Of a stretch of DNA of 64,000 nt, positions 7,389 through 24,550 are shown piece after piece. Source of the stretch: Caulobacteraceae bacterium (GTDB lineage Bacteria; Pseudomonadota; Alphaproteobacteria; Caulobacterales; Caulobacteraceae); contig JAIXZX010000012.1 in the NCBI GenBank assembly GCA_027489335.1, forward strand, positions 186,001-250,000, read 5' to 3'. A model generated the notes under the pieces. That model was not told the DNA's origin. It did not search any database and saw nothing but the letters and a program-made list of their open reading frames with translations. The translations under genes were made by a program, and so were the position numbers. Each line of letters opens with the position of its first letter. Position 1 is the first letter of the stretch.

Positions 7389-8336
7389 ATGCGGCGACGA
7401 TCAGGTGTGATCCTGGCGGCGATCGGCCTTGGCCTTGCAGGTTGCGGCGGGGAGGCGAAGGCGCCCGACGGCGCCTGGCAGAGCGAGATGCGGGAGGTCC
7501 GCATGGCGGTCCGGGGGTCCGAAGACGACCCCATGATCACCCGACGCCTGACGGCCTACAAAACCTATATCGGCAAGGCGACGGGCCTGCCCGTGAAGCT
7601 CTACGAGTCGTCGGACTACAACGGCACGATTCAGGCGCTTTCCAGCGGTCAGGTCGACATCGCTACCATGGCGGGCGGCGGCTACGCCAATGTCGACGCC
7701 CAGATCGGCGAACTGGCCCAGCCCATCCTCACCGTCCGTCAGGCCGAGGGCGACACCGGCTACTATTCCGGTCTGCTGGTCATGGCTGAGAGCCCCTACC
7801 GCACGATCCAGGACCTGAAGGGCAAGACCCTCGGCTACGTCGATTTCAACTCCACCTCCGGTTACCTGTTTCCCCGCGCCGTGATGCGCGAACAAGGAAT
7901 CGACCCGGACACCTTTTTCGGGAAGTCGAGCTTCGCGGGCGGTCATACCCAGGCGGTGATGGCCCTGGATAATGGCCAGTTCGACGCCACGATCATCCAG
8001 GCTGGCGGCGGCGATCCCGAGCACGGCTTCACCACGGGCGCCCACTACACCATGGCCCGCCGCGGAGTGGTGGAGCTGGATGATTTCCGGATCATCTGGA
8101 CGGCGGGTCCCATCCCCAACAGCGCCGTCGTCGTGCGCACCGACCGTCCCCAGCCCTTCATCGACGCGGTGCGCGGCGCCATGGCGGCCTTGCCCTATGA
8201 CGATCCCGACGTCTGGCGCGACATCGGCCAGCCCGACGGGGCGGCCTACACGGCGGTCACCCGCGAACACTACGCCCCGATCATCAAGCTGCGCGCCGAC
8301 GACATCGCCGCCCGTCGCGCCGGAGAGCGCCAATGA
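7389..8336 (+). CDS. phnD: Phosphonate ABC transporter, substrate-binding lipoprotein
   Basis: A 315-residue PhnD-family binding protein. The N-terminus is a lipoprotein signal with lipobox LAGC (Cys19), so it is probably tethered to the inner-membrane outer face rather than free. The ligand motif VDFNSTSGYLFPRA matches the Ser-Thr-Ser/Gly loop by which PhnD proteins hold the phosphonate group. A second conserved part, SSFAGGHTQAVMALDNGQFDA, follows. It heads a tight operon phnD-phnD2-phnE1-phnE2 with 4-bp, 4-bp and 1-bp overlaps. A Pho-box-like repeat precedes it. Confidence 0.93.
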   Translation: MRRRSGVILAAIGLGLAGCGGEAKAPDGAWQSEMREVRMAVRGSEDDPMITRRLTAYKTYIGKATGLPVKLYESSDYNGTIQALSSGQVDIATMAGGGYANVDAQIGELAQPILTVRQAEGDTGYYSGLLVMAESPYRTIQDLKGKTLGYVDFNSTSGYLFPRAVMREQGIDPDTFFGKSSFAGGHTQAVMALDNGQFDATIIQAGGGDPEHGFTTGAHYTMARRGVVELDDFRIIWTAGPIPNSAVVVRTDRPQPFIDAVRGAMAALPYDDPDVWRDIGQPDGAAYTAVTREHYAPIIKLRADDIAARRAGERQ

Positions 8337-9187
8337 AACGCCTGCTTCTCGCCGCCGGCGCGGTGCTGCTCAGCGCCGCCCAGGCCCAGGCGCCCGTCCT
8401 GCCGCTGCGGATCGCCGAGATCACTGGACAGACCGGGCCCTGTGCGCCGCCTGCGGCCAACCTTCCCGCCGCGCAGCGGGCCTATGTCGAACTCCTGGCG
8501 CAACGCCTGGAAACCGATGTGCTGAGCTGTCCGGTGGCGGACGCCGCCGGCGCAGCCCAGGCCCTGGCCAGCGGCGCGGTCGATCTCGCCCGTCTTGACG
8601 GCGCGGCCTTCGGACCCGTCTCCGGTGAGACCCGCAGCATCCTGACGACGCGCGCGACCGGGGACCTGAACCGTCTGCCGGTGGTGGTGGCCGTCCCGCG
8701 CGCCGCCTCGGCCCAGAGCCTGAGCGACCTTGCAGGCGCGAGCCTGGTTTTCGCAGGCCCACAGAAGGCCAATCTGGACGTTCCGCGCCGCGCCCTGGCC
8801 GACTATGGGGCGGCCGACGCCTTCTTCGGGACCCAGATCGTGGCCCGGGATCACGAGGACGCCGCGACCCGCCTGCGCGCCGGTCAGGCCCAGGCCCTGG
8901 TGTTGCATGCCGGCGCCTGGCAGAAACTCTGCCGTGGCGATCAGCCTGGTGAGGATCTGTGCGAGGACCTGCGGGTCGTCTGGCGCCAGCGCCCGGTGGC
9001 CAAGGCGGCGTGGGCCATCCGCACCGATATGAGCGATGACCGTCGCTTCCGTCTGATCGGCATCCATGTGGCCATGCACAACGAGGCGCCGCAGGCCTTC
9101 GCCTGGGCGGCCGGCGCTGGGGCTGCGGAGTTCGAGCCGACCGAAGCCAAGGCTCTGCTCGCCCAGGGCCCGACGGTCGGATCATGA
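8333..9187 (+). CDS. Second PhnD-like periplasmic binding protein
   Basis: A 284-residue protein with a cleavable signal peptide (MKRLLLAAGAVLLSAAQAQA). The fold pattern is that of PhnD/type-2 periplasmic binding proteins: an N-lobe strand LRIAEITGQ, ALASGAVDLARLDGAAFG, a crossover SLSDLAGASLVFAG and ATRLRAGQAQALVLHAGAW. The Ser-Thr-Ser phosphonate loop of the upstream PhnD is replaced by GPQKANLDVPRRA, so the ligand may differ. It carries Cys pairs (38/65 and 203/212 in approximate numbering) that could form disulfides. It overlaps phnD and phnE1 by four bases each, so it is made with the importer. It may be a second receptor widening substrate range, or a non-transporting sensor. Confidence 0.75.
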   Translation: MKRLLLAAGAVLLSAAQAQAPVLPLRIAEITGQTGPCAPPAANLPAAQRAYVELLAQRLETDVLSCPVADAAGAAQALASGAVDLARLDGAAFGPVSGETRSILTTRATGDLNRLPVVVAVPRAASAQSLSDLAGASLVFAGPQKANLDVPRRALADYGAADAFFGTQIVARDHEDAATRLRAGQAQALVLHAGAWQKLCRGDQPGEDLCEDLRVVWRQRPVAKAAWAIRTDMSDDRRFRLIGIHVAMHNEAPQAFAWAAGAGAAEFEPTEAKALLAQGPTVGS

Positions 9188-10062
9188 CCACCGCCGTCGA
9201 GACCTTCGAACGTGATCGCCGCCGGATGCTGATCCGGCAGCGGACCCAGGCGGCCCTTGGCCTGGCGATTTTCACGGTCCTGCTGCTGGTGTCGTTTCAA
9301 CGCAGCCAGTTCTTCGGCTCCGACATCGGCGGCGATCCCCTGGGGCGTATGGCCGACTTCCTGCAGCGGATGAATCCAGGCCTGAAACCTGAGCTGCTGC
9401 TCGAAGACCGCCAGACCCGCGGCTCCCTGCATTCGTGGTTCTACGCCCTGCCCATCTGGCTGCGTGCGGCCTGGCAGACCGTGGAGATGGCGATCCTGGC
9501 CACCGCCCTCGGATCGGTCCTGGCCCTGGGCGCCTCATTCCTGACCGCCCAGAACCTGATGCCCTTCGCGCCGGTGCGGTTTGTGGTGCGACGCATCCTG
9601 GAAGCGATCCGGACCCTGCCGGACCTGATCATGGCGCTGATCCTGGTGGCGGCCTTTGGGGTCGGACCCCTGGCCGGCGTGCTCACCCTGACCATCTCGA
9701 CCCTCGGCGGTCTCGGCAAGCTGTTCGCCGAGATCAATGAAGAGATCGACCCGCGTCAGCTAGAGGCCCTGCAGGCCGCCGGCGCCGGCCCCCTGAAGAA
9801 GATCCGTTACGGCGTAATGCCCCAGGTGCTGCCCAACTACGCCTCCTACGCCCTGATCCGTCTGGAGGGGAACCTGGCCGGCGCCGCAGCCCTTGGCATC
9901 GTGGGGGCTGGCGGCATCGGCCTGGAGCTGCAGCGGGCCATCACCTACACGGAATTCGACACCTATCTGGCGATCCTGCTGATCATCATCGCCATGATCT
10001 TCCTGATCGACTTGTTCTCCGAGGCCGTGCGTCACCGCCTCATCGGTCTGGAGAAGGCCTGA
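9184..10062 (+). CDS. phnE: Phosphonate ABC transporter, permease subunit 1
   Basis: A 292-residue PhnE-type permease. After an N-terminal extension with one helix (residues 20-36) and a periplasmic stretch, it has a binding-protein-dependent transport domain (about 95-285). The EAA-like cytoplasmic loop is EALQAAGAGPLKKIRYGVMPQVLPNY, which contacts the ATPase PhnC. Residues AALGIVGAGGIGLEL are the PhnE hallmark shared with the next gene. It probably pairs with the downstream PhnE2 as a heterodimer. Confidence 0.93.
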   Translation: MTTAVETFERDRRRMLIRQRTQAALGLAIFTVLLLVSFQRSQFFGSDIGGDPLGRMADFLQRMNPGLKPELLLEDRQTRGSLHSWFYALPIWLRAAWQTVEMAILATALGSVLALGASFLTAQNLMPFAPVRFVVRRILEAIRTLPDLIMALILVAAFGVGPLAGVLTLTISTLGGLGKLFAEINEEIDPRQLEALQAAGAGPLKKIRYGVMPQVLPNYASYALIRLEGNLAGAAALGIVGAGGIGLELQRAITYTEFDTYLAILLIIIAMIFLIDLFSEAVRHRLIGLEKA

Positions 10063-10883
10063 TGCCTCGGCAAGCCTATGACCAGGCCCTGGCCATCGCG
10101 CCGGACGCCCTGCGCGCGCCCTGGACCCGCCGGGCGCGCGACTTGGTCCTGCTGATCCTCGCCCTGGCCGCCCTGGTGGGCATGGCCATCGACCTGGAAC
10201 TGGCGCCCGGCGCCCTGATGACCGGCTTTGGCAAGCTCGGCCGGTTCCTGGGCGAGATGGTCCCGCCGTCGTCCGGCGGGCAGTCGGTGCGGATCCTCAA
10301 GGCCCTGGCCGAGACCTTGGCCATGGCCTTCGCCGGCACGGTGATCGCCGCAGTGGTGGCCCTGCCGCTGGGGGTGATCGGCGCCAAGACCGTCGTGGCG
10401 AACCCGGCCCTGCACTTCGCCTTCCGACGGTTCCTCGACATCTTCCGTGGGGTGCCGGCCCTGGTCTGGGCCCTTATCCTGGTCTCGGCCTTTGGCCTGG
10501 GCCCCTTCGCCGGGGTCGTGGCCCTGGCGCTGGCCGACATTCCCAACCTTGCCAAGTTGTTCTCCGAGGCCCTGGAAAACAGTGATCCCAAGCCGATCGA
10601 GGGGGTTCGCTCTGCGGGCGCCTCGCCCCTGGCTGTGATGCGCTTTGGCCTTGCCCCGCAATTCGCCCCCGTCGCCACCAGCCAGACCCTGTTCTTCCTG
10701 GAGGGCAATTTCCGCAATGCCGGGGTTCTCGGGATCGTCGGGGCCGGCGGCATCGGCTTTGAGCTGGATGAGCGCATTCGCATCTTCGCCTTCGACGAAG
10801 TAGCCTTCATCATCCTGCTCTACATGGTCGCCGTGGCCTGCCTGGACACCCTGTCCCGGGCGTTGCGCAACCGGCTGGCCTAG
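10062..10883 (+). CDS. phnE: Phosphonate ABC transporter, permease subunit 2
   Basis: A 273-residue second PhnE. It has about six helices, the loop GVRSAGASPLAVMRFGLAPQ as EAA motif, and GVLGIVGAGGIGFELDERI near the C-terminus. Its first base is the last base of the phnE1 stop codon (TGATG), so translation is probably coupled. Split PhnE1/PhnE2 permeases are common in phosphonate importers. The gene ends on a 4-bp CTAG overlap with the convergent PfkB-kinase gene. Confidence 0.93.
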   Translation: MPRQAYDQALAIAPDALRAPWTRRARDLVLLILALAALVGMAIDLELAPGALMTGFGKLGRFLGEMVPPSSGGQSVRILKALAETLAMAFAGTVIAAVVALPLGVIGAKTVVANPALHFAFRRFLDIFRGVPALVWALILVSAFGLGPFAGVVALALADIPNLAKLFSEALENSDPKPIEGVRSAGASPLAVMRFGLAPQFAPVATSQTLFFLEGNFRNAGVLGIVGAGGIGFELDERIRIFAFDEVAFIILLYMVAVACLDTLSRALRNRLA

Positions 10884-11755
10884 GGGGCGAACGGGCGATA
10901 GGCCCCAGCCGGCGCGTCCAGCGGGGCCGAACTCGGCAGCCCCACCGTGGTCGCGCCCCAGGCGCAGGCGTGCTGAAGAGCCGCCTCCAGGCCTGCGCCA
11001 GCGCTGAGCGCCTCCAGCAGTCCGGCGGCGAACACGTCGCCTGCGCCTGTGGAATCAACGACCTGGACGGAGGGCCCGCGCGCCATGATCTGGCCATCGG
11101 CTGTATGCGCGCAGGCGCCGTCCGCCCCACGGGTGACGACGATGGCTGACAGGCGGGGGCCAAAGACCAGGCGGGCCGCGCTGAACGGATCGGCCAGGAC
11201 ATCGGGGTGAAGGTCGTCGCCCGAGCAGACCACCACATCGGCGGGGCCTGCATAGGCCGGCCCGGGCCAGTGGACGACCACGGGACCGCGGGCTGAGGCG
11301 GCCCAGGCGTCCGCCCCCGGAAACGCGGCGCGAACATAGACGCCATCCGGCTGAATCGCCGGGTGATCTGCAGGCGAGGGCAGGGGCGGAAGCACCAGCC
11401 TCGCGCGATCCAGGTCGAGTCCCAGGACCAGCCGCTCCCCATCCGGCTCAATCAGGATCAGGGTGGTGCGGCTCTCGCCCGGGCGGCGTCCCACCAGCGT
11501 GGTGTCCAGCCCGGCGGCCTCCGCCAGGGTGATCGACTGATCGCCGCCGTCGTCCGAGGCGACGAGGCTGGCGAGATTGACGTGGTGGCCGGCCTTGGTC
11601 AGGGCGACGCCGGCATTGGCGCCGCCGCCGCCAAGGCGGGCGGCGAGACGTCCCTCTAGGCTGCGGCCGGCCATCCGACCGCCACGCTCCAGCCCGCCCT
11701 CAAGCCAGACCGGGCGGTCCAGGGCCAGGGCGCCGATCACCAGGAAATTCGCCAT
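10880..11755 (-). CDS. PfkB/ribokinase-family sugar kinase inserted in the phosphonate locus
   Basis: A 291-residue kinase of the ribokinase superfamily. The N-terminal motif is GGGGANAGVALTKAG and the C-terminal ATP/anion-hole motif is DSTGAGDVFAAGLLEAL, with the catalytic base Asp in GAGD. The substrate is unknown. The setting suggests a phosphorylated or phosphorylatable ribose or nucleoside. It runs against the flanking phn genes and separates phnDDEE from phnC. The ATG at 11755 is preferred over one eight codons upstream because GGAGG lies seven bases before it. It converges on phnE2 with a 4-bp overlap and diverges from phnC. Confidence 0.88.
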   Translation of the reverse strand: MANFLVIGALALDRPVWLEGGLERGGRMAGRSLEGRLAARLGGGGANAGVALTKAGHHVNLASLVASDDGGDQSITLAEAAGLDTTLVGRRPGESRTTLILIEPDGERLVLGLDLDRARLVLPPLPSPADHPAIQPDGVYVRAAFPGADAWAASARGPVVVHWPGPAYAGPADVVVCSGDDLHPDVLADPFSAARLVFGPRLSAIVVTRGADGACAHTADGQIMARGPSVQVVDSTGAGDVFAAGLLEALSAGAGLEAALQHACAWGATTVGLPSSAPLDAPAGAYRPFAP

Positions 11756-11865
11756 GTGGTCGCCTCCGCGCGGCCACACCTAGGTCAAGGCGGTGACGGG
11801 CGCGAGACACCCCGCCACGGCCCAGCCGACAAATCCCCCCTTGGTGGGCCTGAGCCTCTCGCGGG

Positions 11866-11939: not shown

Positions 11940-12722
11940 ATGCTGGAGCTGCGCAACGTGACCAAGCGGTTCGGGGAGGTCAGCGCTGTCGACGGCGTGT
12001 CCTTCAAGTGCGACCGCGGCGAGTTTATCGGGGTGATCGGGCGCTCAGGCGCCGGGAAATCCACCCTGTTGCGCATGATCAACCGCCTGGCCGACCCGAC
12101 CTCGGGCCAGATTCTCTGGGACGGGGAGGATGTGGGCAAGCTGAAGGGCAAGCCGCTGCGTCAGTGGCGCCGCCGCTGCGCCATGATCTTCCAGCAGTTC
12201 AATCTCTGCCCACGGCTGGACGTGATCACCAATGTCCTGGTGGGCGTTCTGGCCGAGCGACCGACCGCCACCTCCCTGCTCAAGATCTTCCCCGCCGAGG
12301 ATCGCGCCCGCGCCATCCTCGAGCTCGATCGCCTGGACATGGCTCAGGTCGCTCTACAGCGGGCCGCGACCCTGTCGGGCGGACAGCAGCAGCGGGTGGC
12401 CATCGCGCGCGCCATGCTGCAGGAGCCTGACATGCTGCTGGCCGACGAGCCGGTGGCTTCGCTTGATCCCATCAACGCCGAGGTGGTGATGGAGGCGCTG
12501 GAGGACGTGTGCCGCGAGCGGGGCATTCCCGTCATCGTCAATCTCCACAGTCTGGATATTGCGCGGCGCTACTGCACCCGGGTGATCGGCATGTCCAAGG
12601 GCAAGATCATCTATGACGGCCCGCCCGCGGGCCTGACGCCCGATGTGGTGGACAGGATCTATGGGGTCCGCACCGGCCGCGCCGGCCGCGCCTTCGCCAC
12701 CCAGGCCGTGGCCGCCGCCTGA
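11940..12722 (+). CDS. phnC: Phosphonate ABC transporter, ATP-binding subunit
   Basis: A 260-residue ATPase that drives phosphonate import with the PhnE pair. Walker A is GRSGAGKST, the Q-loop is [14 protein letters not shown], the signature is [15 protein letters not shown], Walker B is [12 protein letters not shown] and the H-loop is [11 protein letters not shown]. The [11 protein letters not shown] stretch and [19 protein letters not shown] tail are typical of PhnC. The start has GGAGG six bases upstream. It is separated from phnDDEE by the divergent PfkB gene and has its own Pho-box-like site. It starts a second operon with the hexapeptide transferase and phnN. Confidence 0.94.
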
Positions 12723-13414
12723 TGGGTCTGAAGCTTGCCGACCGGCCCCTGGCGCCGGGCTATCGCTATTTCGAGCGCTATGTTCCACCGACGGACGCCG
12801 CCGAGAAGGTCCGCGGCCCCGAACCGGCGATCAACCGCGAGGCCCAGGTGCATGACAGTATCCTTGGTCCCTGGTGCCGGGTCGGCGCGCGCACCAGCCT
12901 GTCGGAAACCGCCATGGGGGCCTTCAGCTATATCGTGAACGATTCCAGCTCGGCCTATGCCGAGATCGGCAAGTTCTGCTCCATCGCCCGGGATGTCCGG
13001 ATCAATCCCGGCAACCATCCGACCTGGAAGGCCGCCCAGCATCACTTCAGCTATCGCGCCATCTCCTATGAGCTGGGGGACGAGGACGACCAGGACTTCT
13101 TCGAGTGGCGCCGCTCGCACACCGTGACCCTGGGCCACGACGTGTGGCTGGGCCACGGGGTGACCGTGCTGCCTGGCGTCACCGTGGGCACCGGCGCAGT
13201 TGTCGGCGCGGGCGCGGTGGTGTCCAAGGATGTGGCCCCCTTCACCATTGTGGGCGGGGTGCCGTCCAAGCCGATCCGCGAGCGCTTCCCCAAGGCGGTG
13301 CAGGACGGCCTTCTTGCGATCGCCTGGTGGGACTGGGACCATGAACGCCTCGCCGACGCCCTCGACGACTTCCGCGCCCTCGACGCCGACGCTTTCGTCG
13401 AAAAATACGCCTGA
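12722..13414 (+). CDS. Phosphonate-cluster hexapeptide-repeat transferase (DapH/LbH type)
   Basis: A 230-residue left-handed beta-helix protein of the family found in phosphonate operons. Hexapeptide turns run from about residue 35 to 185 (ILGPWCRVGARTSLSETAMGAF, then GHDVWLGHGVTVLPGVTVGTGA split by an insert). The insert carries INPGNHPTWKAAQHHFSYRA, characteristic of this subfamily. It is probably an acyl-CoA-dependent O- or N-acetyltransferase; acetylation of an aminoalkylphosphonate or an intermediate is plausible but unproven. The ATG overlaps the phnC stop (TGATG), and the 3' end overlaps phnN by about 74 bp. Confidence 0.88.
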   Translation: MGLKLADRPLAPGYRYFERYVPPTDAAEKVRGPEPAINREAQVHDSILGPWCRVGARTSLSETAMGAFSYIVNDSSSAYAEIGKFCSIARDVRINPGNHPTWKAAQHHFSYRAISYELGDEDDQDFFEWRRSHTVTLGHDVWLGHGVTVLPGVTVGTGAVVGAGAVVSKDVAPFTIVGGVPSKPIRERFPKAVQDGLLAIAWWDWDHERLADALDDFRALDADAFVEKYA

Positions 13415-13961
13415 GGGCGGGCTGCTGGTCCTGGTGGTCGGCCCCTCCGGAGTCGGCAAGGACACCTTGATCGACGGCGCCCGGGCGACCCTGGCCGACA
13501 ATCGTGAAGTGGTGTTTGTGCGCCGCGACATCACCCGTCCCGCCGAGGCCGGCGGCGAGGATCATCGGCCGGTGAGCGAAGCGGAGTTTCAGAGTCGCGA
13601 GGCGGCCGGCGACTATGTCTTGTCCTGGCGCGCCCATGGGCTCTGCTACGGCGTGCCCGCGGACATCCTGCAGGATCTGGCCGCCGGGCGCAGGGTGGTC
13701 GTCAATGTGTCCCGCGGCGTGATCGACGAGGCCCGGCGGCGCCTGGGGGCTGTGCGTATCGTCTCCGTGAGCGCCGACCCTGAGCAGCTGGCCGCGCGCT
13801 TGCGCGGCCGCGGCCGGGAGTCCGAGGCCGAGATCGCCGACCGCATCGCCCGCGCCCAGGCCTACGGGGTCGCGGGTGACGACGTGATCACGCTGCGCAA
13901 CGACGGGTCACGAGAAGCGGGCGTCATGGCTATGATAAGAGCCATAATGATTGAGGGTTAA
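13341..13961 (+). CDS. phnN: Ribose 1,5-bisphosphate phosphokinase
   Basis: PhnN phosphorylates ribose 1,5-bisphosphate to PRPP, the last step that returns the C-P lyase sugar to nucleotide metabolism. The protein is guanylate-kinase-like. P-loop GPSGVGKDT lies near residue 35, followed by FVRRDITRPAEAGGEDH (substrate/lid part), LSWRAHGLCYGVP, and NVSRGVIDEARRR. I place the start at the ATG 13341, giving 206 residues and a 74-bp overlap with the transferase gene. This leaves an atypical 27-residue Ser/Thr/Pro-rich leader, so an alternative start (GTG or CTG) just before LLVLVVGPSG near 13420-13435 is possible. The end is clear. Confidence 0.88.
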   Translation: MNASPTPSTTSAPSTPTLSSKNTPEGGLLVLVVGPSGVGKDTLIDGARATLADNREVVFVRRDITRPAEAGGEDHRPVSEAEFQSREAAGDYVLSWRAHGLCYGVPADILQDLAAGRRVVVNVSRGVIDEARRRLGAVRIVSVSADPEQLAARLRGRGRESEAEIADRIARAQAYGVAGDDVITLRNDGSREAGVMAMIRAIMIEG

Positions 13962-14030: not shown

Positions 14031-15005
14031 GTGGTCGACTCGCTGCAACTGGCTCTGACCAATCTGCTGACCCCGGCGATCCTGTTCTTCTTGCTGGGCT
14101 TCGGGGCCGGCTGGTTCAAGTCCGACCTGGCCGTGCCGGAGGGTGCGGCCAAGACCCTGGCCCTGGTGCTGATGCTGTCCATCGGCTTCAAGGGCGGCGT
14201 CGAAGCCGCGCGGGCAGGGCTCAGCCCGGACTTCCTCAAGGCCGCTGGCGTCGGCCTGACCCTGAGTTTCGGCATCCCCATCATCGCCTTCGGCGTCCTG
14301 AAGGTGATCAGCCGGCTGGACCGGACCACGGCGGCGGCGACGGCGGCCCACTATGGCTCGGTCTCCATCGTCACCTTTGTCGCAGGCACGGAATTCCTGC
14401 GGGTCAGCGGCGTTCCGTTTGGCGGCTATATGGTCGCGGTGGTCGCCTTGATGGAAACCCCGGCCATCCTTTCGGCCCTGATCTTGGCCGGCGGCGGGGC
14501 GGCCGGTCGCCAGGGGCTGCGCGGCGAGCTGTTCCGCGAAGTCGCGCTGAACGGGTCCGTGGTTCTTCTGATCGGCGCCTTCCTGGTCGGCCTGCTCAGC
14601 GGCGACGCGGGCATGAGCAAGATGGAGGTCTTTGTCGGCCCCGTCTTCCAGGGGGTGCTGGTGCTCTTCCTGCTGGATATGGGCCTGGTGGCGGCGCGGC
14701 GGCTGAGCGCAGCCCGGTCCCTGACCCTGCCGCTGATCGCCTTTGCGATCTGCATGCCGCTGTTGTCTTCGATGCTGTCGCTCGGCCTATCCCTGGCGCT
14801 GGGCCTGTCGCCCGGCAATGCGGCGGTCCTGGCCATACTGGCGGCCAGCGCCTCCTATATCGCCGTGCCGGCGGCCATGCGGATCGCCCTGCCGGACGCT
14901 GATCCGGGAGTCTATCTGACCCTGTCGCTCGCCGTGACCTTCCCGTTCAATCTGGTCTTCGGCATTCCCCTCTACACGGCGGCCACCGCCGCCCTCATCG
15001 GGTGA
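14031..15005 (+). CDS. SbtA-like sodium-dependent anion (bicarbonate-type) transporter
   Basis: A 324-residue membrane protein with about ten hydrophobic segments in two similar halves. It matches the SbtA/DUF897 family (LTPAILFFLLGFGAGWFKSDLAVPEG at the N-terminus; TAAHYGSVSIVTFVAG; ILAASASYIAVPAAMRIALP). In cyanobacteria SbtA imports bicarbonate with sodium. Here there is no carboxysome or Rubisco gene nearby, so the anion is open. The start is GTG with GGAG upstream. The next gene encodes an SbtB/PII-like protein, the usual partner. An imperfect palindrome centred on GGGCCGGCCC (13992-14001) lies 30 bp before the start. Confidence 0.85.
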   Translation: MVDSLQLALTNLLTPAILFFLLGFGAGWFKSDLAVPEGAAKTLALVLMLSIGFKGGVEAARAGLSPDFLKAAGVGLTLSFGIPIIAFGVLKVISRLDRTTAAATAAHYGSVSIVTFVAGTEFLRVSGVPFGGYMVAVVALMETPAILSALILAGGGAAGRQGLRGELFREVALNGSVVLLIGAFLVGLLSGDAGMSKMEVFVGPVFQGVLVLFLLDMGLVAARRLSAARSLTLPLIAFAICMPLLSSMLSLGLSLALGLSPGNAAVLAILAASASYIAVPAAMRIALPDADPGVYLTLSLAVTFPFNLVFGIPLYTAATAALIG

Positions 15006-15010
15006 GATCC

Positions 15011-17146: not shown

Positions 17147-17851
17147 TCAGGCGGCCGCCTTGAACTGGGACACCTCAAAGAGCCGGCTGGCCACGGCGTC
17201 GCGAACATCGAGATCGTGGAAGATGCCGATCATGGCGGCGCCTTCCTCAAGGGCCTCGTTGATCAGCCGCACGACGATGGCCCGGTTCTCCGCATCCAGG
17301 GAGGCGGTGGGCTCGTCCAATAACAGGACCGGATACTTGCGGATGAAGCTGCGGGCGATATTCACCCGCTGCTGCTCGCCGCCGGAGAAGGTGGCCGGCG
17401 GCAGGTCCCAGTGGGCCTGGGGCAGGCGGAGCGCCGACAGCAGTTCGCTGGCCCGGTCCTTGGCCTCTTCGAACGGGACGCCGTTTTCCAGCAGGGGCTC
17501 CATCACCAGCTGCAGGGTCGGCACCCGGGGGATGACCCGCAGGAACTGGGAGACGTAGCCCAGGGTTCGACGACGAACCTCCAGCACCTCGTGGGGATTG
17601 GCCTTGGTGATGTCCACATAGGCGCCGTCGTGCCAGACCTTCACCGCTCCTTGCGTCGGCAGGTAGTTGCCGAAGATGGAGCGCATGAGGGTGGACTTGC
17701 CGACGCCGGACTCTCCGGCCAGCACCACGCATTCGCCGGCGGCGACCTGCAGGGTGAGGTCCTGGAAGACCGGGATGGTGGCCGATTCCGCGTTGTGCAG
17801 AACGAAGGTCTTGGCCAGGTCTTCGACGATGATCAGGGGTTTGTCGGTCAT
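17147..17851 (-). CDS. phnL: C-P lyase operon ABC-type ATPase PhnL
   Basis: A 234-residue ABC ATPase without a membrane partner. PhnL associates with the C-P lyase core complex and is needed for forming the ribose-triphosphate phosphonate. Walker A is GESGVGKST, the signature is FSGGEQQRVNIARSF, Walker B is LLLDEPTASLD and the H-loop GIFHDLDVRD. The N-terminal IIVEDLAKTFVLHNA is typical of PhnL. It lies four bases after phnK. Confidence 0.95.
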   Translation of the reverse strand: MTDKPLIIVEDLAKTFVLHNAESATIPVFQDLTLQVAAGECVVLAGESGVGKSTLMRSIFGNYLPTQGAVKVWHDGAYVDITKANPHEVLEVRRRTLGYVSQFLRVIPRVPTLQLVMEPLLENGVPFEEAKDRASELLSALRLPQAHWDLPPATFSGGEQQRVNIARSFIRKYPVLLLDEPTASLDAENRAIVVRLINEALEEGAAMIGIFHDLDVRDAVASRLFEVSQFKAAA

Positions 17852-17855
17852 GGCT

Positions 17856-18653
17856 CTAGATCTGCAGGACGGAGGAGACGAGGAGCTGGGTGTAGGGATG
17901 CTGGGGATCGTCCAGCACCTGGTCGGTGAGCCCGGTTTCCACCACCTCGCCGCCCTTCATGACCATCAGGCGGTCGGCCATCAGCCGGGCCACGGCCATG
18001 TCGTGGGTGACGATGATCACCGCCAGGCCCAGGTCCCGGACCAGTTCGCGGAGCAGGTCGAGCAGGCGGGCCTGCACCGAGACGTCGAGGCCGCCGGTGG
18101 GCTCATCCATGAACACCAGGCGCGGGCCATGGATCAGGTTGCGGGCCACCTGGATGCGCTGCTGCATGCCGCCGGAGAAGTTGCGCGGCTTGTCGTCGAT
18201 GCGGCGGGTGTCGAGCTCTACCCGGTCCAGCCAGTCGATAGTGGCCTGGCGCATATTGCCATAGTGGCGGCCGCCCAGATTCATCAGCGGCTCGGCCACA
18301 TTGGCCCCGCCGGAGACCCGCATGCGCAGGCCGTCGCGGGGGTTCTGGTGCACGAAGCCCCATTCTTCCCGCTGCATCCGGCGCCGGTCGGGCTCGGACA
18401 GGCCATAGATGTCGGTCAGGCCAAAGCGGCGGGTGTCGAAGCGGACCTCGCCCGAGGTCGGCGTCAGCTTGCCGGAGATGCAGTTGAGCAGGGTGGTCTT
18501 GCCCGATCCGCTCTCGCCGACGATGCCGAGCACCTCGCCCGGACGCAGGTCGAAGGCCACGTCACGGCAGCCCAGGACATGGCCGTACCATTTGGTCAGG
18601 CCCTCGACGCTGAGCAGCGGCGCTGGCGCTATTCTGCCAGGGATGGCGTTCAT
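17856..18653 (-). CDS. phnK: C-P lyase complex ABC-type subunit PhnK
   Basis: A 265-residue ABC ATPase that binds the PhnGHIJ core and is required in vivo for C-P cleavage. Walker A is GESGSGKTT, the signature is FSGGMQQRIQVARNL, Walker B is LVFMDEPTGGLD and the H-loop VTHDMAVARLMAD. The DIYGLSEPDRRRMQREEWGFVHQNPRDGLR stretch resembles both PhnK and oligopeptide ATPases; the operon position settles PhnK. It overlaps phnJ by four bases. Confidence 0.95.
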   Translation of the reverse strand: MNAIPGRIAPAPLLSVEGLTKWYGHVLGCRDVAFDLRPGEVLGIVGESGSGKTTLLNCISGKLTPTSGEVRFDTRRFGLTDIYGLSEPDRRRMQREEWGFVHQNPRDGLRMRVSGGANVAEPLMNLGGRHYGNMRQATIDWLDRVELDTRRIDDKPRNFSGGMQQRIQVARNLIHGPRLVFMDEPTGGLDVSVQARLLDLLRELVRDLGLAVIIVTHDMAVARLMADRLMVMKGGEVVETGLTDQVLDDPQHPYTQLLVSSVLQI

Positions 18654-19579
18654 TGGGCGGGCTCCTTCAGGGCGGCGTCCTGATCCAGGGTGTGGCCGGC
18701 CATGGGGCCGACATGGCCAGCCTCGCGGCGTTCGGCGCAGTGGTGGCTGTCGGAGCAGACGAACATCTTGTCGCCGGCGTCATCGAGGATGACCTCGTCG
18801 AGATAGGAGTCCTCGGCCCCGCACAGGGCGCAGGTCTCTTCCCAGGTTTGGGTCTCGAACGGATAGTCCTCGAAATCCAGGCTGCGGACGCGGGTGAAGG
18901 GCGGCACGGCGTAGATCCGCTTTTCGCGGCCGGCGCCGAACAGCATGACCGCCTCGTTCTGGGCCATTTTCGGATTGTCGAACTTGGGGATGGGCGAGGG
19001 CGACATGAGGTAGCGCTCCTCCACCATCACCGGATAGCCGGCGGTGGCGGCGATGCGCCCATAGGCCGAGACGTTCTCGTAGAGCGAGACGTACTGCAGG
19101 CCGTACTCCTCGTAGGCATGCATGGCGCGGGTTTCGGTCTCCCGGGCCTCCAGGCCGCGCAGGGGCTCCGGCTGCGGCACCTGGTAGACCAGGACCTGGC
19201 CCTGCTTGAGGGGCTTTTCCGGGATCCGGTGGCGGGTCTGGATGATGGTCGCCTCACCAGTGTCCTCGGTGGTGGCTACGTCGGCCACATTGGCGAAGAA
19301 CCGGCGGATGGAGACGGCGTTGGTGGTGTCGTCGGCGCCCTGGTCGATGCACTTGTAGACATCGTCGGGGCCGATGATCGCCGCGGTCAGCTGGATGCCG
19401 CCGGTGCCCCAGCCGTAGGGCACGGGCATTTCCCGCGAGCCGAAGGGCACCTGGTATCCGGGGATGGCCAGGGCCTTAAGGATCGAGCGGCGGATCATCC
19501 GCTTCGTCTGCTCGTCGAGATAGGCGTAGTTGTAATAGCGCTCGGGCGCATTGGCGCGAGCCGGAACTGGGGTGCTCAT
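18650..19579 (-). CDS. phnJ: C-P lyase, radical SAM enzyme PhnJ
   Basis: A 309-residue PhnJ, the enzyme that breaks the carbon-phosphorus bond by radical chemistry and releases an alkane and ribose cyclic phosphate. The cysteines Cys250, Cys253, Cys275 and Cys281 (ETCALCGAEDSY ... MFVCSDSHHCAER) match E. coli Cys241/244/266/272 with a constant offset of nine. The fourth is the proposed thiyl-radical residue. The glycyl-radical position is conserved as Gly41 in ALAIPGYQVPFGSRE. All catalytic residues are present, so the enzyme should be active. It overlaps phnI and phnK by four bases each. Confidence 0.97.
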   Translation of the reverse strand: MSTPVPARANAPERYYNYAYLDEQTKRMIRRSILKALAIPGYQVPFGSREMPVPYGWGTGGIQLTAAIIGPDDVYKCIDQGADDTTNAVSIRRFFANVADVATTEDTGEATIIQTRHRIPEKPLKQGQVLVYQVPQPEPLRGLEARETETRAMHAYEEYGLQYVSLYENVSAYGRIAATAGYPVMVEERYLMSPSPIPKFDNPKMAQNEAVMLFGAGREKRIYAVPPFTRVRSLDFEDYPFETQTWEETCALCGAEDSYLDEVILDDAGDKMFVCSDSHHCAERREAGHVGPMAGHTLDQDAALKEPAQ

Positions 19580-20685
19580 TCTGCGGCTTCCTTCAGGGCG
19601 GCGCGGCGCTCGAAGTGCTCCTTGCGGAGCCGGCGGATCAGTTGCAGGTCGGCCTGGAAGTCGACGTAGTGGGGCAGCTTCAGATGCTGCACGAAGCCCG
19701 AGGCCTCCACATTGTCGGAGTGGTAGAGGACGAATTCCTCGTCCTGCACCGGGGCGTCTGCCTGCTCGCCCACTTCACGATGACGCAGGGCGCGGTCGAC
19801 GATGGCCATGCTCATGGCCTTCCGCTCGCAATGACCGAAGGTCAGGCCGTAGCCGCGGGTGTATTGCGGCGGGCGCTCGGCGGAGCCGGCGAAGCCCGAC
19901 AGCATGGTGCATTCCGTCAGGGTGATTTCGCCGATCTCGATGGCGAAGCCGAGCTCGTCGGGGACGAACTCGACGGCCACTTCGCCCATGCGGATCTCGC
20001 CGCAGAGGGGGTGGGTTGAGCCCCAGCCGCGCTGCGAGGAATAGGCCAGGCTGAGCAGGAAGCCCTCGTCGCCGCGGGCCAGGGCCTGCAGGCGCTGGTC
20101 GCGATCGGCGGGGAACTTCATCGGCTGGCGGGTCAGGTCGTAGGGCTCGGGCGCTTCGTCGGTGCGGACGTCATGCTCCAGCAGATCCTCATGGCGGAAC
20201 ACCGAGGCGATGTTGGGCATGGGATAGGCCTGGGGCTCTTCGGCCTGGGGCGCGGGCTCAGGGACGACACCGCCTTCCGCCGCCAGGGCGAAGTCGAGCA
20301 GGCGGTGGGTGTAGTCGAAGGTGGGGCCAAGCACCTGGCCGCCGGGAATGTCCTTGAAGGCGGCCGAGACGCGGCGGCGCACCGCCATGGCTTCGGTCTC
20401 CACGGGCAGGGAGGCGCCGAAGCGGGGCAGGGTGGTGCGATAGGCCCGCAGCAGGAAGATGGCCTCGGGCAGGTCGCCCCGGGCCTGCTTGACCGCCAGC
20501 GCAGCCAGGTCGCGGTCGTAGCAGGAGCCTTCGCTCATCACCCGATCGACGGCCAGCGAGAGCTGCTCGCGAACCTGCGCCACTTCCAGCTCGCTGACGC
20601 CCGGATCGCCACGGCGGTCCTCGGCCAGCCACTGGTGGGCGTGGGTGATCGCCTTCTCGCCGCCTTTGACGGAAACATAGGCCAT
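19576..20685 (-). CDS. phnI: C-P lyase core subunit, nucleosidase PhnI
   Basis: A 369-residue PhnI that, with PhnG, PhnH and PhnL, displaces adenine from ATP by the phosphonate to give ribose 1-phosphonate 5-triphosphate. It starts with the family sequence MAYVSVKGGEKAITHAHQWL. Other conserved blocks are PRFGASLPVET, HPLCGEIRMGEVAVEF and GYGLTFGHCERKAMSMAIVDRAL. The region LYHSDNVEASGFVQHLKLPHYVDFQADL near the C-terminus is strongly family-like. GGAGG lies six bases before the start. Confidence 0.96.
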   Translation of the reverse strand: MAYVSVKGGEKAITHAHQWLAEDRRGDPGVSELEVAQVREQLSLAVDRVMSEGSCYDRDLAALAVKQARGDLPEAIFLLRAYRTTLPRFGASLPVETEAMAVRRRVSAAFKDIPGGQVLGPTFDYTHRLLDFALAAEGGVVPEPAPQAEEPQAYPMPNIASVFRHEDLLEHDVRTDEAPEPYDLTRQPMKFPADRDQRLQALARGDEGFLLSLAYSSQRGWGSTHPLCGEIRMGEVAVEFVPDELGFAIEIGEITLTECTMLSGFAGSAERPPQYTRGYGLTFGHCERKAMSMAIVDRALRHREVGEQADAPVQDEEFVLYHSDNVEASGFVQHLKLPHYVDFQADLQLIRRLRKEHFERRAALKEAAE

Positions 20686-20686
20686 G

Positions 20687-21304
20687 TCAGCCTCCCTTGA
20701 TCTGAGCGGTTGTGGTGCGCGGCAGGGCGAGCAGCTGGTCGCCTGAGACCAGCAGAACGTCGACGCCGAACTGGAACTGCGCCTGATTGGTCTCGATCTG
20801 CGTCCAGAAGTCCTGGGGCAGTCCCTGGGGCGCGATGTCGGTGGTGGTCTGGATGCCCGGACCGCTGAGGGTCACCACGGGTCCGCCCTCGAGGGACGCA
20901 ATCTGCAGGATCACCGTCGTGGACCGGTCGGGGTATTTGGCGTCGCCCTGGTTGAAGGCGGCCAGACTTGGGGCCTTGGCCATGTCGGTGACGATGGCGA
21001 AGGCGGCCTCTTGAGCGTTCCGCGTCAGCGGACAGCCACAGTGGAAGCGCAGCCAGGCCTCCGCTTCGGAATCGGCCAGGGCCGGGTCGAGCCAGACCAG
21101 GGTCTCGAAGTCAAAGAGGGTGAGCGCCACGGCGCCGGCGGCCTTGCTGAGGCCGGTCGGAGCCTGAGGCGCGCGCTCGAAGCGGGTGATGCGCCCGGGG
21201 CGGGCCATGCATTCCATCACCTCGCGGAACACCGCCTGGCTCTCGCGGACGGGGTCGGCGAAGGCCGGGGCGATGCGGCTGAGATCGAGGGTTGCGACGC
21301 TCAT
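20687..21304 (-). CDS. phnH: C-P lyase core subunit PhnH
   Basis: A 205-residue PhnH of the core complex. Family blocks seen: AFADPVRESQAVFREVMECMARPG at residues 12-35, LTLFDFETLVWLD, FHCGCPLT, and PEAWL-like central helices replaced by EAEAWLRFHCG. The C-terminus has FQFGVDVLLVSGDQLLALPRTT. It overlaps phnG by four bases (ATGA) and ends one base before the phnI start codon. Confidence 0.95.
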   Translation of the reverse strand: MSVATLDLSRIAPAFADPVRESQAVFREVMECMARPGRITRFERAPQAPTGLSKAAGAVALTLFDFETLVWLDPALADSEAEAWLRFHCGCPLTRNAQEAAFAIVTDMAKAPSLAAFNQGDAKYPDRSTTVILQIASLEGGPVVTLSGPGIQTTTDIAPQGLPQDFWTQIETNQAQFQFGVDVLLVSGDQLLALPRTTTAQIKGG

Positions 21305-21774
21305 TGGGGGCCTCGGGTGCGGACCATGGTGAAGAAGTCGACCTTGGTGGCCGCGGCCTTTCGGGCGGCGGTGTCACGACGCTCAGCCTGGGCGCGGGCC
21401 AGTCTGGCGACCACGGCGCCCTCGACGGCGGGCCGAAGCGCCGGCGCCTGCATCATGGCGTCGACGGCGGCCGCCAGCTCGGCGTGGCGACGATCGCGGC
21501 CGGCGACGTAGCCGATCCCCGTCTCACCGCTCTCAAGCCGCACGGCCGCACGGGTGACGGTCATTTCGCCCACATTGAAGGCGTCGCCGGCGCCGCCCAT
21601 GCGACCGCGCACCAGGACCAGACCTGTCTCGGGCGCCCGCAGGGCCGAATAGGCCGGGGGATTTGAAAGGTCGTCCCAGGCTGCGCTCACCTCACCGGGC
21701 TGAGCCTTGGCCAGGATGGACAACCATTGGCGGCGCTCATTGCCCGCCGCGTTGTTGACCGGGTCAACCGGCAT
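21301..21774 (-). CDS. phnG: C-P lyase core subunit PhnG, first gene of the operon
   Basis: A 157-residue PhnG. The segment ERRQWLSILAKAQPGEV near the N-terminus and FNVGEMTVTRAAVRLESGETGIGYVAGRDRRHAELAA in the middle are typical. GAGGTG lies four bases upstream of the ATG at 21774. This is the first gene of an eight-gene operon phnGHIJKLM-DUF1045, read leftward from the intergenic region shared with phnF. Confidence 0.94.
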   Translation of the reverse strand: MPVDPVNNAAGNERRQWLSILAKAQPGEVSAAWDDLSNPPAYSALRAPETGLVLVRGRMGGAGDAFNVGEMTVTRAAVRLESGETGIGYVAGRDRRHAELAAAVDAMMQAPALRPAVEGAVVARLARAQAERRDTAARKAAATKVDFFTMVRTRGPQ

Positions 21775-21928: not shown

Positions 21929-22648
21929 ATGTCAGGTGGAATGCCGTTGTGGCGAGAGATCGCCCAGTCGCTGGAACAGCAGATCCGGTCGAGAGAACTG
22001 ACGCCCGGTGACAAGTTACCGACCGAACATGAGCTTTCGCGCCAGTTCATGGTCAATCGCCATACGGTGCGCCGCGCCCTGTCGGACCTGCAGGAAAAGG
22101 GGATTGTGGAGTCGACCCAGGGGCGGGGCAGCTTCGTGCGCCGCCCATCACGCCCGGCACGCCTGCAGAAGCGGCCGCGGTTCACCGAGGCGGTGCTGAA
22201 AAGCGGCGCCGAGCCCACCACTCAGATCATCAAGCTGGAAGTCCGCCCGGCGGTCAGTGCAGTGGCCGAGGCCCTGGGTCTCAAGATCGGGGCGCCGGTG
22301 ATCTTCATGGAGCGGCGCCGCTTCGTTGACGGTGAGCCGACAGCGCTGGGTCTTCACCACTTCAGCTTCGAGCGGTTCCCGACCTTCATCGAGATGTACA
22401 AGGTCCGCGGCACCATCACTCAGACCCTGCGCGACAGCGGCGTGCCCGACTACACCCGGCGCAAGACCTCCATCTCCGCACGCCTGCCGACCCCGCAGGA
22501 GGCCGAGCAGCTGCACGTGCCCCGCCATGTGCCGCTGCTGATCCGCCGGTACCTGAATGTGGATGGTCTGGGACGCCCGCTGGAGTTCGGGGAGTCGCGC
22601 TCCACCGCCGAGATCGAGATCGTTTTTCAGGACCCCGAGCGGGACTGA
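21929..22648 (+). CDS. phnF: GntR/HutC-family regulator of phosphonate genes
   Basis: A 239-residue repressor-type regulator. A winged helix-turn-helix (residues about 5-72, PLWREIAQSLEQQIRS ... LPTEHELSRQFMVNRHTVRRAL ... GRGSFV) is followed by a UTRA ligand-binding domain (about 90-235). PhnF proteins respond to phosphate or phosphonate compounds in some species; the ligand here is unknown. It diverges from phnG and faces the PhnM2-EEP pair 28 bp downstream, so it may control both directions. Confidence 0.9.
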   Translation: MSGGMPLWREIAQSLEQQIRSRELTPGDKLPTEHELSRQFMVNRHTVRRALSDLQEKGIVESTQGRGSFVRRPSRPARLQKRPRFTEAVLKSGAEPTTQIIKLEVRPAVSAVAEALGLKIGAPVIFMERRRFVDGEPTALGLHHFSFERFPTFIEMYKVRGTITQTLRDSGVPDYTRRKTSISARLPTPQEAEQLHVPRHVPLLIRRYLNVDGLGRPLEFGESRSTAEIEIVFQDPERD

Positions 22649-22676
22649 ATTGACTTAGTTTTCCAGGAGATTGAGC

Positions 22677-23810
22677 GTGGAACTGGCGTTTAGAAACGCG
22701 CGCGTGGTTACGGGCGACGAAGACTTCATCGGATCGGTCCTGGTGCGTGGCGGGGTCATCGCCCAGGTGGACCGCGGCGCGGGCGCAGTGGGGGAGGACT
22801 TCGAAGGCGACGTCCTGATGCCGGGCGTCGTCGACCTGCACACGGACAGCCTCGAGAAGCACTACTTCCCCCGGCCCAATATCGACTGGAACCCGGTCTC
22901 GGCGGCGGTGACTCACGACGGCTGCGGCCTGTCGGTAGGGGTGACGACGGTGTTGAACTCCCTGACCCTGGGCTCGTTCAATCCTTCGGCGGCCCGCAAC
23001 ACCGATAACCTGAAGCGCCTGGTGGAAGGCCTCCATGGCGCCCAGGGCCAGGGGATGCTCCGGGCCGATCACAAGATCCACTGGCGATGCGAGACCACGG
23101 CGGACGACCTGCGGGGGCGTCTCGACGCCATGGCCGACCATCCGATGACGTCTCTCTTCTCGCTGATGGACCACACGCCTGGCCAGCGTCAGTACCGCAA
23201 TCTTGAGAAGCACCTGGCCAACTGGCAGGCCGGCGGCATGAGCGAGGCCGCCGCCTTCGATCGCCTGGCTCAGGTGCGAGAGCGCCAGGCCCGCAACGCC
23301 GACGCCAACCGCCGCCATGTGGCGCAGATGGCCACCGATCGTCAGATCCCCCTGGCCAGCCATGACGACGAGAGCATCGAGCACATCGACGAAGCCGCCA
23401 ATCTTGGGGCCACCGTAGCGGAATTCCCCGTCACCGCTGAAGCCGCCCGCCGGGCGCGGGAACGCGGCATGGTGGTGGTCATGGGCGGGCCGAACCTGAT
23501 CCGCGGCGGCTCCTATTCCGGCAATGTCCCCGCCGCCGAGCTCGCCGAGGCCGACCTGCTGGACGCCTTCGCCTCAGACTATGTGCCGCGCAGCCTTGTG
23601 GAGTGCGCCTTCGCCATGACCCGGCCGCCCTTCAGCTGGAGCCTCGCCCAGGCCGTGGCCCTGGTCACCGCAGCGCCGGCGCGGGCGGTCGGGCTCGCAG
23701 ATCGCGGTGAGATCGCCGCCGGTCAGCGGGCGGATCTGTTGCGGGTGCGGCTGGCCGGGGATCTGCCCCTGGTGCGCGGAGTCTGGACGAAGGGCGCCCG
23801 CGCCGCGTGA
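22677..23810 (+). CDS. Second PhnM-like amidohydrolase
   Basis: A 377-residue paralogue of PhnM. It keeps the metal motif GVVDLHTDSLEKHYFPRPN and the blocks SLMDHTPGQRQ, LASHDDESIEHIDEA, GGPNLIRGGSYSGN and FASDYVP. It should therefore be a catalytically competent phosphohydrolase of the same type. The start is taken as GTG at 22677 with AGGAG seven bases before it; a TTG at 22671 is less well placed. It follows phnF by 28 bp and overlaps the next gene's region. It could act on a different substituted ribose phosphonate, or on the same one under other conditions. Confidence 0.88.
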   Translation: MELAFRNARVVTGDEDFIGSVLVRGGVIAQVDRGAGAVGEDFEGDVLMPGVVDLHTDSLEKHYFPRPNIDWNPVSAAVTHDGCGLSVGVTTVLNSLTLGSFNPSAARNTDNLKRLVEGLHGAQGQGMLRADHKIHWRCETTADDLRGRLDAMADHPMTSLFSLMDHTPGQRQYRNLEKHLANWQAGGMSEAAAFDRLAQVRERQARNADANRRHVAQMATDRQIPLASHDDESIEHIDEAANLGATVAEFPVTAEAARRARERGMVVVMGGPNLIRGGSYSGNVPAAELAEADLLDAFASDYVPRSLVECAFAMTRPPFSWSLAQAVALVTAAPARAVGLADRGEIAAGQRADLLRVRLAGDLPLVRGVWTKGARAA

Positions 23811-23815
23811 GGCCC

Positions 23816-24550
23816 ATGCGTATCGTCACCCTCAACACCTGGAAGAACGAGGGTCAGTATGCGCGGAGGCTCGCCCTGATGGCCGAGGGCCTGGGCGAGC
23901 TGGAGCCTGACGTGGTCTGCCTTCAGGAGTGCTTCCAGGCGCAAGGCTGGGACACTGCGGCCCATCTGTCGGAGGCGCTGGGACTGGTGGCTCTGTCGGC
24001 GCCGGCCCGGCGAAAGCTGCGGCGACATCAGGGGGAGATCGTCGACAGCGCCTCGGGCCTGGCCATGCTCTGTCGCGAGCCTCCCCTGACCACGGGGCGG
24101 ATCGCCCTGCCGTCTGATCCGACCGATGGCGAGCGGATTGGCCAATGGGCCGATGTCGCCCCTGGCCTCAGGGTGCTGAACCTGCATCTGACGCACCTGA
24201 GGGGGCCGCAGGCCGCTGACCTGCGGCAGGCTCAACTTGTCCAGGCGATCTCTGACGCCGCTCAACCAGGTTGCAGCCTGCTGGTTGCTGGCGACCTTAA
24301 CGCCGCGGCCCATGCGCCGGAGCTCGCGTCGATCGCCGCGGCGCTCGATCACCACGCGGCCGCCACCCTGCAAGGGGAGCGGGCTGATGGCGGACCCTCG
24401 CCAGTCGCCGCGATCGACCACCTGGCCCTCCTGCAACCCGCAGACTGGAAGATCGTGCGCCGCTTCCGCGCCCTCGACCGGCCCGACGCCGAGGGCTGGT
24501 ATCCGTCAGATCACGCCGCAGTCGTCGCCGACCTGACCTCATCCACCTGA
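23816..24550 (+). CDS. Endonuclease/exonuclease/phosphatase (EEP) family hydrolase
   Basis: A 244-residue cytosolic EEP-fold protein with no signal peptide. It begins RIVTLNTWKNEG, then EPDVVCLQECF (catalytic Glu), LNLHLTHLRG, LLVAGDLNAAAH (Asp/Asn), and ends YPSDHAAVVADL (Asp/His pair). These residues bind the metal and activate water in the family, which includes nucleases, sphingomyelinases and phosphodiesterases. No DNA-binding insert is visible, so a small-molecule phosphodiester or phosphomonoester is likelier. It starts five bases after PhnM2 and closes the phnF-phnM2 operon, so a role in processing phosphonate-derived ribose phosphates is possible. Confidence 0.82.
   Translation: MRIVTLNTWKNEGQYARRLALMAEGLGELEPDVVCLQECFQAQGWDTAAHLSEALGLVALSAPARRKLRRHQGEIVDSASGLAMLCREPPLTTGRIALPSDPTDGERIGQWADVAPGLRVLNLHLTHLRGPQAADLRQAQLVQAISDAAQPGCSLLVAGDLNAAAHAPELASIAAALDHHAAATLQGERADGGPSPVAAIDHLALLQPADWKIVRRFRALDRPDAEGWYPSDHAAVVADLTSST

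Follow-up and report, generated by a model that had tools for sequence, protein, structure and literature searches.

Carbon-phosphorus (C-P) lyase is a main broad-range route for methylphosphonate, the breakdown products of glyphosate and other phosphonates, and it is a source of methane in oxygenated water. In its ordinary form, ATP and the phosphonate give ribosyl-phosphonate triphosphate (RPnTP) and then 5-phosphoribosyl phosphonate, from which the alkane and 5-phosphoribosyl 1,2-cyclic phosphate are released, and the latter is turned into ribose 1,5-bisphosphate and finally into phosphoribosyl pyrophosphate (PRPP). We examined a window (the whole stretch of 64,000 nucleotides analysed here) that is part of a 362-kb Phenylobacterium contig (G000:C6), the nearest named relatives of which, judged by phnM2, are Phenylobacterium metagenome-assembled genomes. 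At positions 7389-24550 of the window lies a complete C-P lyase locus, whose PhnJ retains its cysteines. It has phnGHIJKLM, phnC, phnD, phnE, phnF and phnN in common with the phn operon of E. coli; in contrast to that operon, phnP and phnO are absent, a DUF1045 gene is present instead, there are two PhnM and a second PhnD, an EEP-fold enzyme, a PfkB kinase and an SbtA/SbtB pair (SbtAB) are added, and the core and phnF units are divergent. We give slightly better than even chances to the reading that these genes encode the ordinary pathway plus accessory enzymes, which would act on its ribose-phosphate intermediates. The genes on which this reading turns are the following.

16002..17144, minus strand: phnM1 (TIGR02318, 417 bits; PhnM-invariant residues kept)
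22671..23810, plus strand: phnM2, a second PhnM, sister clade of phnM1 (TIGR02318, 410 bits)
23807..24550, plus strand: EEP-fold phosphatase or phosphodiesterase of a phn-linked subfamily (PF03372, 56 bits; signature and tree)
10880..11779, minus strand: PfkB-family kinase (PF00294, 90 bits; GAGD motif kept)

phnJ was present in 12 of the 119 Caulobacteraceae genomes sampled and in 30 of the 101 from Phenylobacterium. Gene order around it was read in 33 further genomes, 29 of them Phenylobacterium and 4 from elsewhere in the Caulobacteraceae, with several of the loci on short contigs. In the locus counts below only loci with the named flanks on the contig were included, the window itself was not counted, and gaps were measured between the ends of tblastn matches. 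Gene order was largely kept in the 33 other loci, with a different layout in G129 and G001, and the ratio of non-synonymous to synonymous substitution rates (dN/dS) was 0.42 or less for the 22 genes for which the window was set against three relatives. Thus, the locus is not a product of chance, and its extra genes are under purifying selection.

Within the genus, the EEP was found in 18 of the 30 genomes with phnJ and in none of the 71 without it (Fisher p 2e-12), and PfkB was found in 18 of the 101 genomes, 17 with phnJ and one without (p 2e-10). The latter genome, G135 (81% complete), had pfkB matched in three pieces, flanked by pieces of phnC (98-100%), phnE2 (93%) and phnE1 (98%), so that its phn locus is probably unassembled. 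A PhnM-family protein was detected in exactly the 30 genomes with phnJ, and 26 of these have one of the M2 type (identity of at least 65%). The preliminary description of this DNA had asked whether the extra genes recur with phnJ above chance. For EEP, PfkB and PhnM2, co-occurrence in the genus is far more frequent than chance would give, and EEP and PfkB also have relatives in the phn operons of a different class or order. As far as genome comparison can tell, these three genes recur with the C-P lyase pathway and are not bystanders of one genome; that they travel with it is firm within the genus and thinner outside.

The start of the EEP gene overlaps the stop of phnM2. The protein scores 56.2 bits against the PF03372 cut-off of 24.5, and its N, E, D, N, D and H columns, which we take to be catalytic, are invariant. 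The 21 phn-linked EEPs formed one clade (99/97) in a tree where 3 of the 12 non-phn rows were cut at the front end and the non-phn profile hits G037, G049 and G534 from the class and phylum samples were left out. They carry a five-residue signature (K13, R68, K70, S83 and G108) that was complete in none of the 12 non-phn EEPs, while R72, D107 and R110 are common to the phn group and its nearest non-phn relatives. A basic patch of R68, K70, R72 and R110 was also considered as phn-specific and was rejected, because R72 and R110 occur in the nearest non-phn EEPs as well. An EEP of the same subfamily was identified in the phn operon of the Acidovorax sp. T1 plasmid p2-T1 (Betaproteobacteria). The sequence search of PDB gave no match for the EEP at the limits used, and the PHROGs search was likewise empty. 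In another genus of the family, a related EEP lies outside phn (L219, L220 and L247); two of these three copies start with a lipoprotein-like signal sequence, and this non-phn EEP is possibly an exported cousin of the phn-linked one.

For PfkB, no equivalog cut-off was reached, neither that of ribokinase (TIGR02152, 70 vs 299.65) nor those of the ribose-1-phosphate kinases (NF053626, 58 vs 330; NF041134, 32 vs 500). The gap between phnE2 and phnC is 995-1059 bp in the 14 loci with pfkB; without it, the gap is 102-136 bp in 6 loci and 459 bp in G156 (G129 and G001 have other layouts). In the Rhizobiaceae, PfkB was found inside the C-P lyase operons of Rhizobium sp. AB2/73, Rhizobium sp. 11515TR and Sinorhizobium sp. 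B11, in a plasmid survey that leaves out the second AB2/73 record (H54). These plasmid loci (L248, L249 and L227) combine a divergent C-P lyase with PfkB, the PhnJ of B11 being 51% identical to that of E. coli; a carbohydrate-type ABC transporter precedes PfkB in AB2/73 (L248), and phnF precedes it in 11515TR (L249). Phn core genes were not found within 10-12 kb of the PfkB homologues of Aeromonas, Photobacterium, Ciceribacter and R. jaguaris, the last of which has a phnF-like regulator nearby.

Both PhnM copies exceed the equivalog cut-off of 391 bits and retain the PhnM-invariant residues; among the fixed differences (E. coli numbering), G99 is replaced by H in M1, and H280 by Y in M2. phnM1 is at the locus in 28 of 29 relatives, and phnM2 is beside phnF in 24 of 27 loci. 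In the three exceptions (G038, G051 and G192), phnF lies close to or at the end of its contig, and G192 has M2 on another contig. In a first tree of 63 proteins (16 M1, 17 M2, 29 from other Alphaproteobacteria and that of E. coli), M1 and M2 were both clades (100/100 each) on the same side of a 100/99 branch. Their sister relation persisted, with support of 96/95, in a second tree of 70 proteins that had fewer M1 and M2 rows and 20 further sequences of the class, distant second copies among them. In this second tree, another alphaproteobacterium, G349, has a PhnM pair of its own (L162 and L251) apart from M1 and M2, so duplication is not unique to the Caulobacteraceae M1/M2 group. G129 has two M2-type copies and none of the M1 type, which suggests that M2 is able to do the job of PhnM. 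A PDB sequence search with PhnM2 gave no match at the limits used. The second PhnM had first been taken as unusual; that view did not last, since, of the 55 other genomes with PhnM in the class sample, 27 had at least two PhnM-family matches (the second copy mostly distant, and some of them fragments), and two phnM copies per genome are mentioned in a passage of PMC9381506.

If the accessory enzymes work on the ribose phosphates of the pathway, PhnM2 would be a specialised diphosphatase of RPnTP or ribose triphosphate (RTP), made together with the regulator unit. The EEP would hydrolyse a 5-phosphorylated intermediate, with the cyclic phosphate or ribose 1,5-bisphosphate as first choice, and would yield inorganic phosphate (Pi) directly, bypassing PhnN. 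We base the 5-phosphorylated substrate on the intact active site of the EEP together with the phn-specific K13, R68 and K70, which stand beside R72 and R110. PHP-family enzymes and ANGEL2 provide precedents for action on cyclic phosphates. To judge by the titles of its records, ANGEL2 is a 2',3'-cyclic phosphatase. PfkB may re-phosphorylate the 5-OH of an anionic ribosyl compound after loss of the 5-phosphate, and SbtA/SbtB would be a later insertion, probably outside the chemistry of the pathway.

Several observations weigh against this assignment. The substrates of PhnM2, EEP and PfkB are deduced from position, conserved residues and fold, the fold matches of the EEP, viewed against the TDP2, nocturnin, ANGEL2 and sphingomyelinase subfamilies, point to no single substrate, and the Fisher tests of association take no account of phylogeny. 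By tblastn, the EEP was found in 17 of 25 loci with phnM2; it was missing in 7 of the 24 with room for it (the eighth locus without it, G168, ends at a contig edge), and was shortened or partly matched in G125 and G148. Similarly, pfkB was present in 14 of the 23 relatives with phnE2 and phnC on the contig and absent in 9; that of G129 is far from the phn locus, and those of G168 and G191 are on other contigs, with surroundings outside the regions read. As either gene is absent in some loci, neither is essential. Beyond the genus, the betaproteobacterial link of the EEP is one plasmid, the sole plasmid record matched, and in 4 of the 7 plasmid records read for PfkB the kinase stood without neighbouring phn core genes. 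Identity between the PfkBs of Caulobacteraceae and rhizobia is only about 30%, and a kinase tree that included E. coli references gave no resolution.

A different, though improbable, role would lie upstream of C-P lyase. Here the EEP would cut phosphonate esters of glycerol, sugars or lipid head-groups, the freed phosphonate would enter C-P lyase, and PfkB would consume the released sugar or polyol. Phosphodiesterases and sphingomyelinases are indeed among the EEP neighbours by fold, the transporter that precedes PfkB in AB2/73 (SBP_bac_1/8) is in one run with phnGHIJKLM, and R. jaguaris has a similar transporter with its PfkB, the phn core not being beside them. However, no signal peptide was seen on reading the window EEP, the locus of the window showed no sugar transporter, and 11515TR, with phnF directly before PfkB, is without a transporter of the AB2/73 type. 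The conserved basic residues of the EEP suggest, rather, a substrate with a second phosphate.

We consider it unlikely, somewhat more so than an upstream role, that PhnM2 and EEP are house-cleaning enzymes that would clear away by-products of PhnI and PhnJ that are toxic or lead nowhere (ribose 5-triphosphate, for example), without a part in the phosphorus yield. The PhnM active site kept in PhnM2 would fit such a task, and the EEP is absent or damaged in several loci as a non-essential clean-up enzyme would be; yet PhnM1 alone could do the same job, and the place of M2 next to phnF in all but the loci where phnF is at or near a contig end speaks against it. Doubtful, too, and a little more so, is a salvage loop for ribosyl phosphonates, in which PfkB, PhnM2 and EEP would provide C-P lyase with an additional entry and exit; no description of such a loop was met in the literature searched. 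PfkB would then make the PhnJ substrate, 5-phosphoribosyl phosphonate, from leaked or imported ribosyl phosphonate, avoiding the expense of ATP and adenine via PhnGHI, and the EEP would free Pi from the product without PhnN and PRPP. Least probable of all is that the extras are mere neighbours with no phosphonate role, as is likely for SbtAB, with its homologues in genomes lacking phnJ and its junction open to another insert (see below), since EEP and PfkB track phnJ across the genus and have relatives in the phn operons of a different class or order, and all the extras are under purifying selection.

The SbtAB pair consists of two genes.

14031..15005, plus strand: SbtA-like Na+/anion transporter, an insertion in close relatives (PF05982, 356 bits)
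15002..15319, plus strand: SbtB-like PII protein (PF00543, 51 bits; matched solved chains include SbtB)

An Sbt_1 domain (356 bits vs 27) is thus accompanied by a PII-like partner (51 vs 25), the arrangement of the SbtA bicarbonate transporter. sbtA is at the phn locus in 8 of 28 relatives. When all copies are counted, it occurs in 29 of the 101 Phenylobacterium genomes, and is commoner with phnJ (18 of 30) than without it (11 of 71; p 2e-5); for copies outside the phn locus, the difference (9 of 30 vs 11 of 71) is not significant (p 0.11). The preliminary description would have given up the extra genes as partners if relatives carried them elsewhere, and for SbtAB this largely holds, because in only 9 of the 29 sbtA genomes, the window's included, is sbtA within the phn locus (identity 91% or more). 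Outside it, in the 12 of 20 genomes read, an sbtA-sbtB pair was seen in two, and a LysR-type gene adjoins sbtA in 6 of the 10 others. phnN and DUF1045 are 1356-1940 bp apart in the 8 loci with sbtAB and 1-168 bp apart in 18 loci without it (G001 has another layout). G038 (L047), another Caulobacteraceae genome, holds a different 2.2-kb insert at this junction, with one MurA-like and one P-loop kinase-like ORF by eye; the junction therefore looks insertion-prone. From these patterns, SbtAB is most plausibly a passenger, or else an add-on, in close relatives.

The remaining pathway genes of the locus are listed below.

12722..13414, plus strand: hexapeptide acyltransferase of phosphonate operons (TIGR03308, 288 bits, cut-off 202)
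13419..13961, plus strand: phnN, ribose 1,5-bisphosphokinase (TIGR02322, 201 bits, cut-off 156; 5' end approximate, the match covering residues 74-249 of ORF 13200-13961)
15316..16005, minus strand: DUF1045 2H phosphoesterase, presumed PhnP substitute (TIGR03223, 249.5 bits, cut-off 248.95)
17147..17851, minus strand: phnL (TIGR02324, 319 bits, cut-off 256)
17856..18653, minus strand: phnK (TIGR02323, 373 bits, cut-off 303)
18650..19579, minus strand: phnJ, C-P bond-cleaving subunit (PF06007, 471 bits, Pfam cut-off 25; alignment to E. coli)
19576..20685, minus strand: phnI (PF05861, 526 bits)
20687..21304, minus strand: phnH (TIGR03292, 208 bits; family-profile score 225 bits)
21301..21774, minus strand: phnG (TIGR03293, 175 bits; family-profile score 177 bits)
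21929..22648, plus strand: phnF regulator (GntR/UTRA), divergent from phnG (TIGR02325, 201 bits, cut-off 157)

The core forms a minus-strand run, phnGHIJKL-M1-DUF1045, and shares the phnG/phnF intergenic region with the plus-strand run phnF-M2-EEP that starts there. On the other side lie the transporter genes, pfkB (in the reverse orientation to them), the transferase, phnN and sbtAB, a block that converges on DUF1045. phnGHIJKLM are present together, and PhnJ is 70% identical to that of E. coli in an alignment that keeps the cysteine stretch and the glycine of PGYQV, which are presumably catalytic. The profile matches bear out the genes and coordinates of the complete locus as first described, and its intact PhnJ residues. 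Judged by homology, every step of the ordinary route is encoded, with D1, D2, E1, E2 and C, G-H-I-J-K-L, PhnM, DUF1045 as a substitute for PhnP, and PhnN; the locus is in all likelihood functional, and appears to be of a type common to Caulobacteraceae and some neighbours. The variant route once suggested is a conjecture only. That the extras fit no textbook pathway stands for several genes, for which a side branch is possible, and fails for DUF1045 and the PhnM pair. PhnD2, PfkB, Sbt_1, the PII-like protein, DUF1045, PhnM2 and EEP all score above the Pfam cut-offs of their families, and PfkB, SbtA and EEP reach their broad Pfam families only.

DUF1045 had been counted among the unexplained extras and is in fact a known phn-operon gene, a member of TIGR03223 (Phn_opern_protn) beside phn genes, with both HxT motifs read from the sequence. 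It is at the locus in 28 of 28 relatives and in 28 of the 101 Phenylobacterium genomes, every one with phnJ; a PDB sequence search gave no match at the limits used. phnP (TIGR03307) was over its cut-off in none of the 101 genomes, the window's included, with weak sub-threshold matches in 99. In the phn loci of Sinorhizobium and Aminobacter (DUF1045/rcsF), DUF1045 is near phnM and the 2H gene is proposed to replace PhnP, according to PMC8235418 and PMC10574752; the latter places rcsF (2H family) within the 16 of 54 surveyed phn operons that are without phnP, and the former repeats the proposal. The hexapeptide transferase, overlooked in the preliminary description, is at the locus in 22 of 23 relatives.

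Five genes account for transport.

7389..8336, plus strand: phnD1, phosphonate-type binding protein with STSGY motif (PF12974, 163 bits; TIGR01098, 176 bits, cut-off 112)
8333..9187, plus strand: phnD2, divergent PhnD-like binding protein (PF12974, 81 bits; TIGR01098 failed, 46 vs 112)
9184..10062, plus strand: phnE1 permease (TIGR01097, 250 bits, cut-off 217)
10062..10883, plus strand: phnE2 permease (TIGR01097, 265 bits)
11940..12722, plus strand: phnC ATPase (TIGR02315, 318 bits, cut-off 266)

Neither binding protein reaches the PhnD equivalog TIGR03431 (cut-off 261; PhnD1 199, PhnD2 49). PhnD2 is without the STSGY motif, has several cysteines conserved in at least 90% of 24 aligned copies, and gave no match in a PDB sequence search at the limits used; its ligand may be other than a phosphonate. 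As phnD2 is flanked by D1 and E1 in all 22 relatives counted, it is, with phnM2, a constant part of this locus type. Directly after the locus, a TonB-dependent receptor (24654-27353; TIGR01782, 500 bits) is encoded, which may serve the passage of phosphonates through the outer membrane; in 12 of the 33 loci, phnM2 or EEP likewise has a homologue of this receptor after it. Immediately upstream of phnD1, a HisKA_2/HWE-type sensor kinase (6109-7173) is kept in 6 of the 33 loci, in close relatives only. The divergent phnG/phnF region (21775-21928) is AT-rich, and a weak PhoB-like site recurs there in relatives; it is mostly within the range of shuffled sequences, so we make no claim of a regulon, and no Pho box with up to 3 mismatches was found in the window.

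The fate of the ribose intermediates of C-P lyase has been little tested beyond E. coli. The phn-linked EEP, the phn-linked kinase and the duplicated PhnM are three definite enzymes for few known intermediates, which makes alternative end steps directly testable. Multi-word queries of open-licence PMC full text gave, among the matches listed, no paper that deals with PfkB or EEP at C-P lyase loci, which is weak evidence of absence; Caulobacterales clusters are drawn in a figure of PMC10291797. The core is already known; apparently new, with due caution, are the occurrence of M1 and M2 together with EEP, the EEP subfamily tied to phn, and the recurring kinase. In other alphaproteobacterial phn loci, most PhnM proteins resemble the E. 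coli enzyme more closely than they do M1 or M2, many other DUF1045-type genomes of the class have a second, more distant PhnM-like protein, and the EEP was unmatched in the roughly 4 kb read around 29 such PhnM loci. The closest fold for the PfkB model is the sulfofructose kinase YihV, which shares with it a D-R pair and a basic residue at position 27/35, presumably the sulfonate contacts of YihV, and is only 22-23% identical over the structural alignment. The operons of Rhizobium AB2/73 and 11515TR and of Sinorhizobium B11 resemble the locus in having PfkB inside the operon and differ in their divergent PhnJ. Plasmid p2-T1 has the EEP subfamily, a DapH/DapD/GlmU-type (hexapeptide) protein, DUF1045, phnN and phnF in common with the window, no PfkB having been seen in its phn stretch; it differs in that it is conjugative, has one PhnM, and carries its EEP between the transferase and phnC.

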